This document shows positions 20,177 through 22,018 of a DNA stretch of 32,141 nt, piece after piece (position 1 is the first letter of the stretch; each line of letters begins with the position of its first letter). The notes under the pieces are model-generated. The model saw only the letters and a list, made by a program, of their open reading frames with translations. It made no database searches and had not been told where the DNA came from. The stretch lies in the NCBI GenBank assembly GCA_945875915.1, contig CAMCMT010000030.1:1-32141 (forward strand). Reading direction: 5' to 3'. Source of the DNA: Synechococcus sp. UW140 (GTDB taxonomy: Bacteria; Cyanobacteriota; Cyanobacteriia; PCC-6307; Cyanobiaceae). The position numbers and the translations under genes were made by a program.

Positions 20177-20578
20177 TCAGATCCAGTGCAGCTCCATGGC
20201 CACGGTCCCCTCCAGGCTCTCCTTCACCGGGCAGCCCTCGGCGGCCCGCTGCAGCACCGCCTTGGCCTGATCCTCCAGGCCTGCCGGCCATTGGATCCAC
20301 ACCTCGAGTTTGGCGATCTTGCGCCGGCCGCTGGTTGTCATCGTTTTCTCAACCCGGGCGCTGCAACCCTCCAAAGCCCAGCCATGGCGCTCCGCCATGA
20401 TCCCCATCACGGTGAGGATGCAGCTGGCCAGGGCCGTCGCCACCAAATCGGTGGGGGAGAAGCGCTCGCCCTTTCCCTGGTTATCGACGGGGGCATCCGT
20501 TTCCAGGCGCGAGTGGGAGGGGCCGTGGTCGGCCTGGCAGCGCAGGCCGCCGGAGTACTCGCAAACGATCGACACCAT
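20177..20578 (-). CDS. OsmC/Ohr-family protein
   Basis: A 133-residue protein of the OsmC superfamily, whose members reduce organic hydroperoxides through two redox cysteines. The conserved segment GERFSPTDLVATALASCILTVMG carries the first Cys at 53, and EGCPVKESL carries the second at 116. The Glu and Arg residues usual around the active site are less certain from reading alone. The ATG at 20578 gives the standard N-terminus (MVSIVCEYSGGLRC); earlier in-frame codons are Pro/Gly-rich and unlike the family. A peroxidase role would suit a photosynthetic cell, but some OsmC relatives lack that activity. Confidence 0.88.
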   Translation of the reverse strand: MVSIVCEYSGGLRCQADHGPSHSRLETDAPVDNQGKGERFSPTDLVATALASCILTVMGIMAERHGWALEGCSARVEKTMTTSGRRKIAKLEVWIQWPAGLEDQAKAVLQRAAEGCPVKESLEGTVAMELHWI

Positions 20579-20902
20579 GACAATCGGGCCAAGCTGGACG
20601 GGGAACCCCAGACTGGCAGGAGCGGACGGATTGCCTGGCGGAAGGCTTGCCTGGCTGACTGCCTTTTGGCCTGGCCAGCCTGCCCGTCTCATCCCCTTTA
20701 GCCAGCCAGGGCCGAATCTCGGCGTAGTCATGGCCAAATCACTAGTCGCTGGGTCCCGATCCATAGGTCCAGCAGCCTCAGTCCAGGGCGGCCTCCATTT
20801 CGAGGTGGTACTGGAGACCCCAGGCGTGCTGGCCGAGTCGAAAGGCCTAATCGCGGCAATGGCTGGACCGGATCAGGGGGCACCCAGCCTCGAGCAGCAG
20901 GT
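20579..20902. other. 324-base spacer upstream of the OsmC gene
   Basis: No gene that I can support. A plus-strand open frame (20730-20921, 63 codons, starting MAKSLVAGSRS) runs into the 3' end of the opposite gene. Its third codon positions are clearly less GC-rich than in the real genes nearby, so I treat it as non-coding. The stretch presumably contains the promoter of the OsmC gene and the 3' end of the cysteine-motif gene transcript. It could also be the remains of a lost gene. Confidence 0.5.
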
Positions 20903-21157
20903 CTATTTCTTGCGGCAGTAACCGCCACCCACATTCATCCAGCCCTCCAGGCAGGCCTTGCCTTGGGTCGGCACGACCGTGTAGGTCATCAACCCCAGGG
21001 TGGAGCACTTGCCGTTGAAGGTGTCCACGTAGCCCATAGGACACACCACCTGCAGCTTGGGCACAACCCTCTGGGCCTGGGCCGGAGGCACCAGGGCCCC
21101 GGCGGCAACGCTGCTGGCCAGCAGGAGGGCCCAACGGGACAAGGAACGGCGGCCCAT
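20903..21157 (-). CDS. Small exported protein with two C-x2-G-[YW] cysteine motifs
   Basis: An 84-residue product from the ATG at 21157. A typical signal peptide (GRRSLSRWALLLASSVAAGAL, ending PPAQAQ) suggests cleavage near residue 29, leaving a mature protein of about 55 residues. The mature part holds two matching units, CPMGYVDTFNGKC and CLEGWMNVGGGYC. Each has cysteines 11 residues apart, Gly-aromatic after two residues, and a Gly two before the second Cys. The protein ends in a basic KK. I do not recognise a named family. Two intramolecular disulphides, or metal or cofactor binding, are possible. An upstream in-frame start (to 21244) would destroy the signal peptide, so it is not used. 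Confidence 0.7.
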   Translation of the reverse strand: MGRRSLSRWALLLASSVAAGALVPPAQAQRVVPKLQVVCPMGYVDTFNGKCSTLGLMTYTVVPTQGKACLEGWMNVGGGYCRKK

Positions 21158-21245
21158 GGTGTCGCGAAACGCTGGTGCGCTTCGAGTCTGGCCCGATGGG
21201 GGAATTCGGCAAGGGATGGCGATGGGCTTGATTTCGCCAGGCAAG

Positions 21246-21644
21246 ATGGCTCCAGCTCAACTCCCAGGTGCCATGGCGCAGCGGCGCCCCGAATCCGCAG
21301 CGCCCGAGGCCGGGTTCCAGCAGCTCGCCGAGGAACTGGCGGGCCTGCGCCAGGAGCTGGCGGCCCTTCGAACCACGCTCGCAGAGCTAGTTGGTGCCCT
21401 GGCGGCAGCTGGAACCCCAGCAACGGCCCAGGCCCTAGGTACCGCGGCCCCGATTCAGAGCGAGGTACGGCCCCTGGGCTCCCCCAGCCCCAGCGCCCTG
21501 CTCGCCCGCCGTAACGCCGAACGGCTGGCGGGGGAGGTGCAGCGCCGCGCTGCCCTGGCCAGCGATCCAGGCGACGACACCGAGCTCGATCTCCTGATTG
21601 ATCGCTTGCATGAGCTGGCCCTGGCCAAAGGAGCCGAGCCCTAG
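21246..21644 (+). CDS. Hypothetical protein with coiled-coil segment
   Basis: A 132-residue product from the ATG at 21246 (MAPAQLPGAMAQRRPES); an in-frame ATG at 21273 is equally possible. Residues of about 30-60 (FQQLAEELAGLRQELAALRTTLAEL) form a strong predicted coiled coil. A disordered Ala/Pro stretch follows, then a second helical part (LARRNAERLAGEVQRRAAL, LDLLIDRLHELALAKG). No membrane segment or enzyme motif is seen and I do not recognise the family. It is divergent from the cysteine-motif gene with about 88 bases between. The dehydratase gene follows on the same strand after 65 bases. Confidence 0.6.
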   Translation: MAPAQLPGAMAQRRPESAAPEAGFQQLAEELAGLRQELAALRTTLAELVGALAAAGTPATAQALGTAAPIQSEVRPLGSPSPSALLARRNAERLAGEVQRRAALASDPGDDTELDLLIDRLHELALAKGAEP

Positions 21645-21709
21645 CCGTCGACCCCGCACTGCTGGGGGCGACGGCGCCTGCTGGAATGGCGTCCAGTTGC
21701 CCCCGCGCC

Positions 21710-22018
21710 ATGGCCACCCTGCTCTGCGCCGAAACGGTGGCTGGATTGGCGCACAGCCTGGCCGGCTGGCAGCTGCGGGAGGGCCGGCTGCACCGGGAGC
21801 TGCGGTTTGCTGATTTTGTCGCCGCCTTCGGCTTCATGGCCCAGGTTGCCCTGCTGGCCGAAGCCCTCGGCCATCACCCCGATTGGAGCAACAGTTGGAA
21901 CCAGGTGGTGATCGACCTAACCACCCACGATCTCGGCGGCCTAAGCGACCTGGACCTGGAGCTAGCCCAACGCATTAACCAACTCCTGGAGACAAGCCCC
22001 AACCGAACCTTGCCTTGA
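21710..22018 (+). CDS. Pterin-4a-carbinolamine dehydratase
   Basis: Dehydrates 4a-hydroxytetrahydrobiopterin during recycling of the pterin cofactor. The 102-residue product has the family layout: AGWQLREGRLHREL strand, FGFMAQVALLAEALGHHPDWSN with the catalytic HHP at 55-57, and LTTHDLGGLSDLDLELA. The start at 21710 gives MATLLCAE, matching the usual N-terminus; an ATG at 21686 would add eight residues. No phenylalanine hydroxylase gene is visible in the window, so its pterin partner is unknown here. A possible GC hairpin (CCAGCC/GGCTGG, 22020-22034) follows the stop. Confidence 0.9.
   Translation: MATLLCAETVAGLAHSLAGWQLREGRLHRELRFADFVAAFGFMAQVALLAEALGHHPDWSNSWNQVVIDLTTHDLGGLSDLDLELAQRINQLLETSPNRTLP

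Follow-up and report, generated by a model that had tools for sequence, protein, structure and literature searches.

A putatively exported picocyanobacterial micro-protein with a duplicated cysteine unit that resembles the GBP/EGF hairpin

Introduction

The insect GBP/ENF/SRP cytokines (PDB 6ee9; reviewed in PMC6439351) are exported peptides with a one-disulphide hairpin, and they have a unit core in common with the bacterial family described here. According to the same review, the insect GBP motif is C-x(2)-G-x(4,6)-G-x(1,2)-C-[KR], and GBP resembles the C-terminal part of EGF, forming a short hairpin with one stabilising disulphide. The EGF C-terminal hairpin (cEGF, PF12662) is itself a Cys-Gly-aromatic hairpin closed by one disulphide, as is predicted for the unit considered here. 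CPW-WPC proteins (PF09717) combine a signal peptide with repeated cysteine domains beginning CPxx[WY], a build that recurs in our superfamily; PMC3637178 describes them as Plasmodium ookinete surface proteins with 4-6 cysteines per domain and a WxC domain end.

Here we describe a micro-protein gene from Synechococcus sp. UW140, found in a window of 32,141 nucleotides (the whole stretch of DNA that was analysed). In contrast to the insect GBP/ENF/SRP peptides, the family of the window protein is bacterial, has two or three tandem units, and has a mature part that follows the signal peptide immediately. The other disulphides of EGF are absent from the window protein's units. Unlike the CPW-WPC domain as described in PMC3637178, the units have two cysteines and end mostly in YC or KC, without WxC.

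Results

The gene and its product

The gene and the parts of its product are as follows.

20903..21157, minus strand: complete gene of the 84-aa putatively exported micro-protein (P0002), from ATG at 21157 to TAG at 20905-20903
21074..21157, minus strand: predicted signal peptide, residues 1-28, ending ...PPAQA before Q, read from the sequence by its hydrophobic start
21005..21070, minus strand: repeat unit 1 (RVVPKLQVVCPMGYVDTFNGKC), residues 30-51, with Cys39 and Cys51 (22-column repeat by hhalign; Cys in 80/80 relatives)
20981..21004, minus strand: first part of the linker that separates the Cys pairs, residues 52-59 (type 1 spacing C51-x17-C69; type 2 has x15)
20915..20980, minus strand: repeat unit 2 (TVVPTQGKACLEGWMNVGGGYC), residues 60-81, with Cys69 and Cys81 (hhalign repeat; full GBP-type motif with the following Arg)
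20906..20914, minus strand: basic C-terminal tail RKK (Arg or Lys right after the last Cys in 80/80 relatives)

A preliminary description, made from the sequence alone, had placed a signal peptide and two 13-residue cysteine units at 20903-21157 with no strand stated. Translation confirmed this on the minus strand; the mature part, put there at roughly 55 residues, is 56 aa counted from Q29. Cysteine unit 1 is CPMGYVDTFNGKC (residues 39-51) and cysteine unit 2 is CLEGWMNVGGGYC (residues 69-81). Nothing comparable is encoded by the plus strand across 20903-21157, the gene is single-copy in the source genome, and a promoter and terminator scan returned 0 promoters and 0 terminators. The 84-aa ORF is a real gene under purifying selection: the median dN/dS of the mature parts was 0.18 (313 usable of 351 pairs), comparison of the window protein with L001-L004 gave values from 0 to about 0.17, and nucleotide differences in the mature parts fell mostly at third positions (3815, 2385, and 7981 at codon positions 1, 2, and 3). 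None of 1,000,000 composition shuffles of the mature part contained the pattern C..G[YWF].....G.C twice, and 336 contained it one or more times. Composition shuffles, conservation, and profile shuffles with the cysteines held fixed together ruled out a chance origin of the two-unit pattern.

Export, as first proposed, is supported by the signal peptide read from the sequence and by the cleavage-site columns of 80 relatives, with Ala at -3 in 74/80, Ala at -1 in 77/80, and Gln at +1 in 80/80. The RR close to the N-terminus varies (it is RP in L004), and because this RR is not conserved, the route would be Sec rather than Tat. Sec export of the micro-protein is thus predicted, with a putative cleavage site and location.

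Conservation and distribution of close relatives

Conservation was counted over 80 distinct sequences among 93 full-length relatives, with L086, which has an internal stop codon, left out. All four cysteines are invariant (80/80), as are Pro2 of unit 1 and the Tyr preceding the last Cys; the homologues thus keep the four cysteines, whose loss would have spoken against the original description. Gly4 is present in unit 1 of 80/80 and unit 2 of 78/80 relatives, and the aromatic residue at position 5 is Tyr in 79/80 in unit 1 and Trp in 80/80 in unit 2. The residues first thought to be shared by the two units therefore hold for Cys, Gly4, and the aromatic at 5, whereas Gly11 of unit 1 is not a feature of the whole family: Gly occupies that column in 51/80, in type 1 only. 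Two types were distinguished. Type 1, the kind of the window protein, comprises 51 sequences with a linker of 17 residues; type 2 comprises 29 sequences with a linker of 15, many of them with a C-terminal LGIF/LGIL extension. The Cys pairs within both types are fixed at C-x11-C.

A pattern scan of a genome contig collection yielded 36 loci out of 449 pattern matches, all of them in cyanobacterial records and mostly titled Synechococcus or Cyanobium. Matches occurred in 31 of 386 phylum genomes, all within the window's own family, and the A2 profile matched 104 of the 201 genomes of that family, with distant branches among these matches. In the search of the 386 genomes, 0 of the 13 listed genomes of one genus (g2; genomes of 1.6-1.7 Mb, presumably of the Prochlorococcus size class) had a match. 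Three family copies (L086, L136, and L169, in genomes G288, G201, and G550) have in-frame stops, which suggests that loss is under way in some lineages.

Repeat structure and disulphide pairing

The profiles of the N-terminal and C-terminal units aligned over 22 columns with a score (hhalign probability 90, E 1.6e-6) that none of 200 column shuffles with fixed cysteines reached; the alignment and the shuffles support the internal duplication proposed earlier. In fixed-register permutation (20,000 permutations, cysteines excluded), the 13-mer reached p 0.0043 and the 22-mer p 0.0002, while similarity of the flanks taken by themselves was weak (p 0.051). The repeat extends over about 22 residues from VxP (VVPxxxxxC), starting some 8 residues before the 13-residue unit, with a period of about 30. 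Judged from these alignments, a longer repeat has the 13-residue cysteine unit as its core; at the outset this core was recognised correctly, and the repeat was taken to be shorter than it is.

Either one disulphide per unit or a four-Cys site for a metal or cofactor had been offered for the cysteines. Among 13 two- and three-unit proteins, the cysteine gap was 10-11 in nearly every intact unit, against 15-19 from one unit to the next; the exceptions were the Bosea protein, which has extra Cys, and the broken L136. Since relatives have one to three units with two cysteines each, one disulphide per unit is favoured over the four-Cys site, with a putative pairing within each unit. Each unit also appears to be self-contained, because two- and three-unit relatives keep one C-x10/11-C pair per unit and single units occur in larger proteins. 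The source genome encodes a VKOR (E 7.3e-25, over the cut-off, in an open frame of 369 aa), the expected partner of oxidative folding in an extracytoplasmic compartment.

Structure prediction, another suggested check, gave a hairpin in unit 2. The model of the mature part (mean pLDDT 75.6, pTM 0.43) has strands at 45-49 and 52-55 in mature numbering, which make up the unit 2 hairpin, and short strands only in unit 1. With the signal peptide included, pLDDT was 62.8 and pTM 0.35. Searches with the mature model gave 0 of 7 Foldseek matches at E <= 0.001 and 0 of 20 VIA-align chains at Z >= 2.

Genomic context

Three neighbouring genes form the context of the micro-protein gene.

20177..20764, minus strand: OsmC-like gene, downstream, recognised by eye
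21243..21644, plus strand: uncharacterised coiled-coil-like protein, divergent neighbour, start uncertain (tblastn)
21686..22018, plus strand: pterin-4a-carbinolamine-dehydratase-like (PCD-like) gene, so named from its HHPDW/THDLGGL motifs

Neighbours were counted over the 36 loci of the genome contig collection, some of whose contigs end early; neighbourhood clustering was left aside, since it took in wrong-frame ORFs. On the divergent side, the PCD-like gene is present in 26/36 loci and the coiled-coil-like gene in 16/36. In 19/36 loci the OsmC-like gene follows downstream on the micro-protein strand, at a variable distance of up to about 2.2 kb; the first impression that this neighbour may be coincidental is plausible. 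Such a neighbourhood marks a chromosomal place that has been inherited, not an operon with OsmC.

Four genomes of one genus (G139, G189, G221, and G225 of g5, marine-type by inference) have a type 1 gene and a type 2 gene in tandem. These tandem loci (L049-L052, L072, L080, L081, and L083) diverge from a PCD-like gene followed by a GTPase gene, presumably COG0523-type, and a zinc link is possible.

A wider superfamily of CPxG units

The window protein belongs to the type 1 branch of a superfamily that has no name and whose members have from one to three CPxG[Y/W] units. It has the features by which we delimit the superfamily, namely at least two C-x10/11-C units with Pro/Gly and an aromatic residue near the first Cys, following a signal peptide. 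Superfamily members are found throughout the picocyanobacteria and sporadically among other cyanobacteria; cyanophage S-CBS4 has one, and so do plasmids of proteobacteria and Sulfurospirillum, the occurrence in other phyla being taken from plasmid records only. The A2 profile retrieved distant relatives (L117-L127) in which the repeats are clearer. Two-unit relatives from Prochlorococcus-sized genomes have IPKRGSVCPNGTSYRSGGYC / LPKQGSVCPGGTSSRSGGYC, and larger picocyanobacteria have CPLGYYSSGSYC-type units in two or three copies. A single CPxG[WF]..GGG.C unit was seen within the larger proteins L119, L121, and L122, where the unit is reused outside micro-proteins.

The branches are connected by their profiles. 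A profile of CPLGYYSSG-type relatives with no type 1 or type 2 member inside retrieved types 1 and 2 at E of about 7e-10 to 3e-5, and alignment of profiles A2 and A5, which have no rows in common, gave a probability of 96.6 and E 6.5e-10. The A4 and A5 profiles aligned at E 8e-21; as A4 contains two A5-kind rows, this comparison is not independent and A2 versus A5 was used instead. The A3 profile, made from distant relatives, matched 20 of the 386 phylum genomes, including one from another family (G280, with the clear two-unit protein L137). Two of the 29 genomes in the order of G280 have a match, one with an internal stop. One of the 20 A3 matches, in G297 (L147, E 7e-4), was dropped as false, since its sequence has no units.

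When a three-unit protein was used as a tblastn query, 7 of 72,556 plasmid records matched (Sulfurospirillum, Bosea, Microvirga, Allochromatium, and Thiodictyon), the Allochromatium match being weak (E 0.02), and 2 of 50,697 phage records matched, both of Synechococcus phage S-CBS4. The Microvirga query also matched seven plasmid records, with Alteromonas gained (E 7e-4) and Allochromatium absent. These CPxG-repeat proteins of bacteria, plasmids, and S-CBS4 have the same unit in two or three copies with a period of about 27-32, and they are short exported chains that in most cases end 3-4 residues past the last Cys, like the window protein. They differ from it in their shorter hairpin (mostly C-x10-C), more regular repeats, and sporadic occurrence, and they are hypothetical proteins where annotated.

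In S-CBS4, gp076 (L158:5977-6168), annotated as hypothetical, has two units behind a short hydrophobic start and adjoins an exonuclease gene. On Sulfurospirillum diekertiae plasmids (L159:3983-4231 and L160:2983-3219), a three-unit CPSG-repeat gene adjoins a membrane-protein-like gene, and a gene for an S24-type peptidase lies close by; the L160 copy is frame-shifted ahead of the third unit. Two IMG/VR contigs called viral (L164 and L165) each contain a three-unit relative; the neighbours on L164 are host-like by eye (DprA-like and restriction-nuclease-like), and its viral label is doubtful. The window gene was also considered as a phage or plasmid gene. This was rejected, as the window protein had no match in phages or plasmids and the family profile had none in viral contigs. 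Its phage and plasmid relatives belong to other branches of the superfamily only.

Comparison with GBP, EGF, and CPW-WPC

The window protein had no match in Pfam, NCBIfam, PHROGs, or PDB sequences (none in Pfam at E <= 1 and none in PDB at E <= 10), so no well-characterised family took it in. The preliminary statement that no named family with the pattern was known is not supported, because the core fits the insect GBP motif published in PMC6439351. Of the 80 relatives, 74 have the GBP core in unit 1 and 77 have it in unit 2; 77 show the full motif with [KR] in unit 2, and none shows it in unit 1. In the window protein, unit 2 has the full motif, and unit 1, with Ser after the Cys, has the core only. 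Among 6160 background ORFs, 36 had one GBP core, 11 had the full motif, and 0 had two cores 10-40 residues apart. The best PDB match of the unit consensus of superfamily profile A3 was Stress-response Peptide-1 (6ee9, RVGTCPSGYVRRGTFCFP), a weak one at E 0.03; this peptide was placed with the GBP-like cytokines by its name and by the review PMC6439351.

The cEGF domain matched 3 of 9 A5 members (best E 2.1e-5); the rows with scores reached 12.8 and 17 bits, below the cut-off of 26.6, and the window protein had no match. CPW_WPC matched 27 of 33 A2 members at E <= 1, the best being L073 (8e-5, 23.9 bits, cut-off 23), the only protein above the cut-off among those scanned one by one. The CPW_WPC matches are only 15-24 residues long, always at a single short hairpin stretch within positions 5-29 of the 59 in the profile, and the WPC end is missing from them. 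A genome search for CPW_WPC gave 0 of 81 family genomes, a count that says nothing on absence, since the search found no match anywhere, controls included.

The unit may thus work like the GBP/EGF hairpin rather than being a member of GBP, EGF, or CPW-WPC, and the GBP/EGF resemblance is short and probably convergent. A literature search of titles and abstract beginnings, motif strings included, did not find the CPxG-hairpin family itself. The family is unnamed in the libraries searched (Pfam, NCBIfam, PHROG, and PDB), and the GBP core is already published.

Discussion

We give about an even chance to the reading that the micro-protein is a Sec-exported, non-catalytic binding or structural element of the cell envelope with two disulphide hairpins. 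The small protein would be exported by Sec to the periplasm, thylakoid lumen, or medium, where each repeat unit would fold into a short beta-hairpin with one disulphide (Cys39-Cys51 and Cys69-Cys81) made by a periplasmic VKOR/DsbA-type oxidation system. The two hairpins and the 17-residue linker might then form a rigid, cationic, non-catalytic element that binds or scaffolds in the cell envelope; its contact surface would be the Gly-aromatic turn together with the basic tail. The binding or structural envelope role is our best guess, based on anatomy and conservation, and is the least certain part. Because inheritance appears vertical and core-gene-like (PCD-like neighbour in 26/36 loci) and selection is purifying, a standing cellular role is suggested.

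The same anatomy might belong to a peptide with two disulphide hairpins that the cell secretes into the medium and that affects other cells, either as a signal or in the manner of a bacteriocin. The small size, the positive net charge (+1 to +7 for type 1 mature parts, median +4), the hairpin build like that of the insect cytokines GBP/SRP, and the presence of some relatives on plasmids and in phage S-CBS4 would all fit such a peptide. However, type 1 keeps a stable chromosomal place beside the PCD-like gene under strong purifying selection, no immunity, export, or processing gene is evident among the conserved neighbours, and the double-glycine leader that known cyanobacterial secreted peptides use (PMC4997328) is absent by eye. 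We regard a secreted peptide as rather unlikely.

The invariance of the four cysteines could also reflect a metal (e.g., zinc) or cofactor site built from both units, as in a periplasmic metal carrier, and the GTPase gene after the PCD-like gene in the four tandem genomes, presumably COG0523-type, would agree with this. Such a site is unlikely, since one- and three-unit relatives keep two cysteines per unit and the four genomes with the GTPase gene all belong to one genus. Moreover, C-x10/11-C is not known as a usual metal-knuckle spacing.

If the protein were instead a bacterial EGF/GBP or CPW-WPC member, homologous by descent or transfer and not by convergence, the matches of the superfamily to 6ee9 (E 0.03), cEGF (E 2.1e-5), and CPW_WPC (8e-5 for L073) would be its traces; with CPW_WPC matches of 15-24 residues that lack the WPC end and a window protein without any Pfam match, this is very improbable. 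A thiol-redox protein partnered with the OsmC-like peroxidase can scarcely be what the same-strand gene downstream in 19/36 loci indicates, since there is no CxxC active-site motif, the OsmC-like gene is found at differing distances of up to about 2.2 kb, and the four cysteines are kept in relatives with no OsmC found nearby.

A bolder reading, speculative and quite unlikely, is that the EGF/GBP-type hairpin with its single disulphide arose in bacteria on its own, or is shared with them through an ancient transfer, as a stand-alone ligand module, that picocyanobacteria keep it as a conserved two-hairpin extracellular ligand or adhesin, and that the phage and plasmid copies are mimics or vehicles of exchange.

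No part of the proteome of picocyanobacteria is less well understood than the exported proteins; PMC4949707 gives 54% of their predicted exported fraction as uncharacterised. The micro-protein gene is conserved, its product is small enough for synthesis, and it yields a testable prediction, two intra-unit disulphides. The unit in plasmids and a cyanophage points to a broader, unnamed bacterial repeat family that was missed by the libraries searched. Should the hairpin prove to be a module for binding, it would give a handle on how abundant photosynthetic cells present or sense at their surface.
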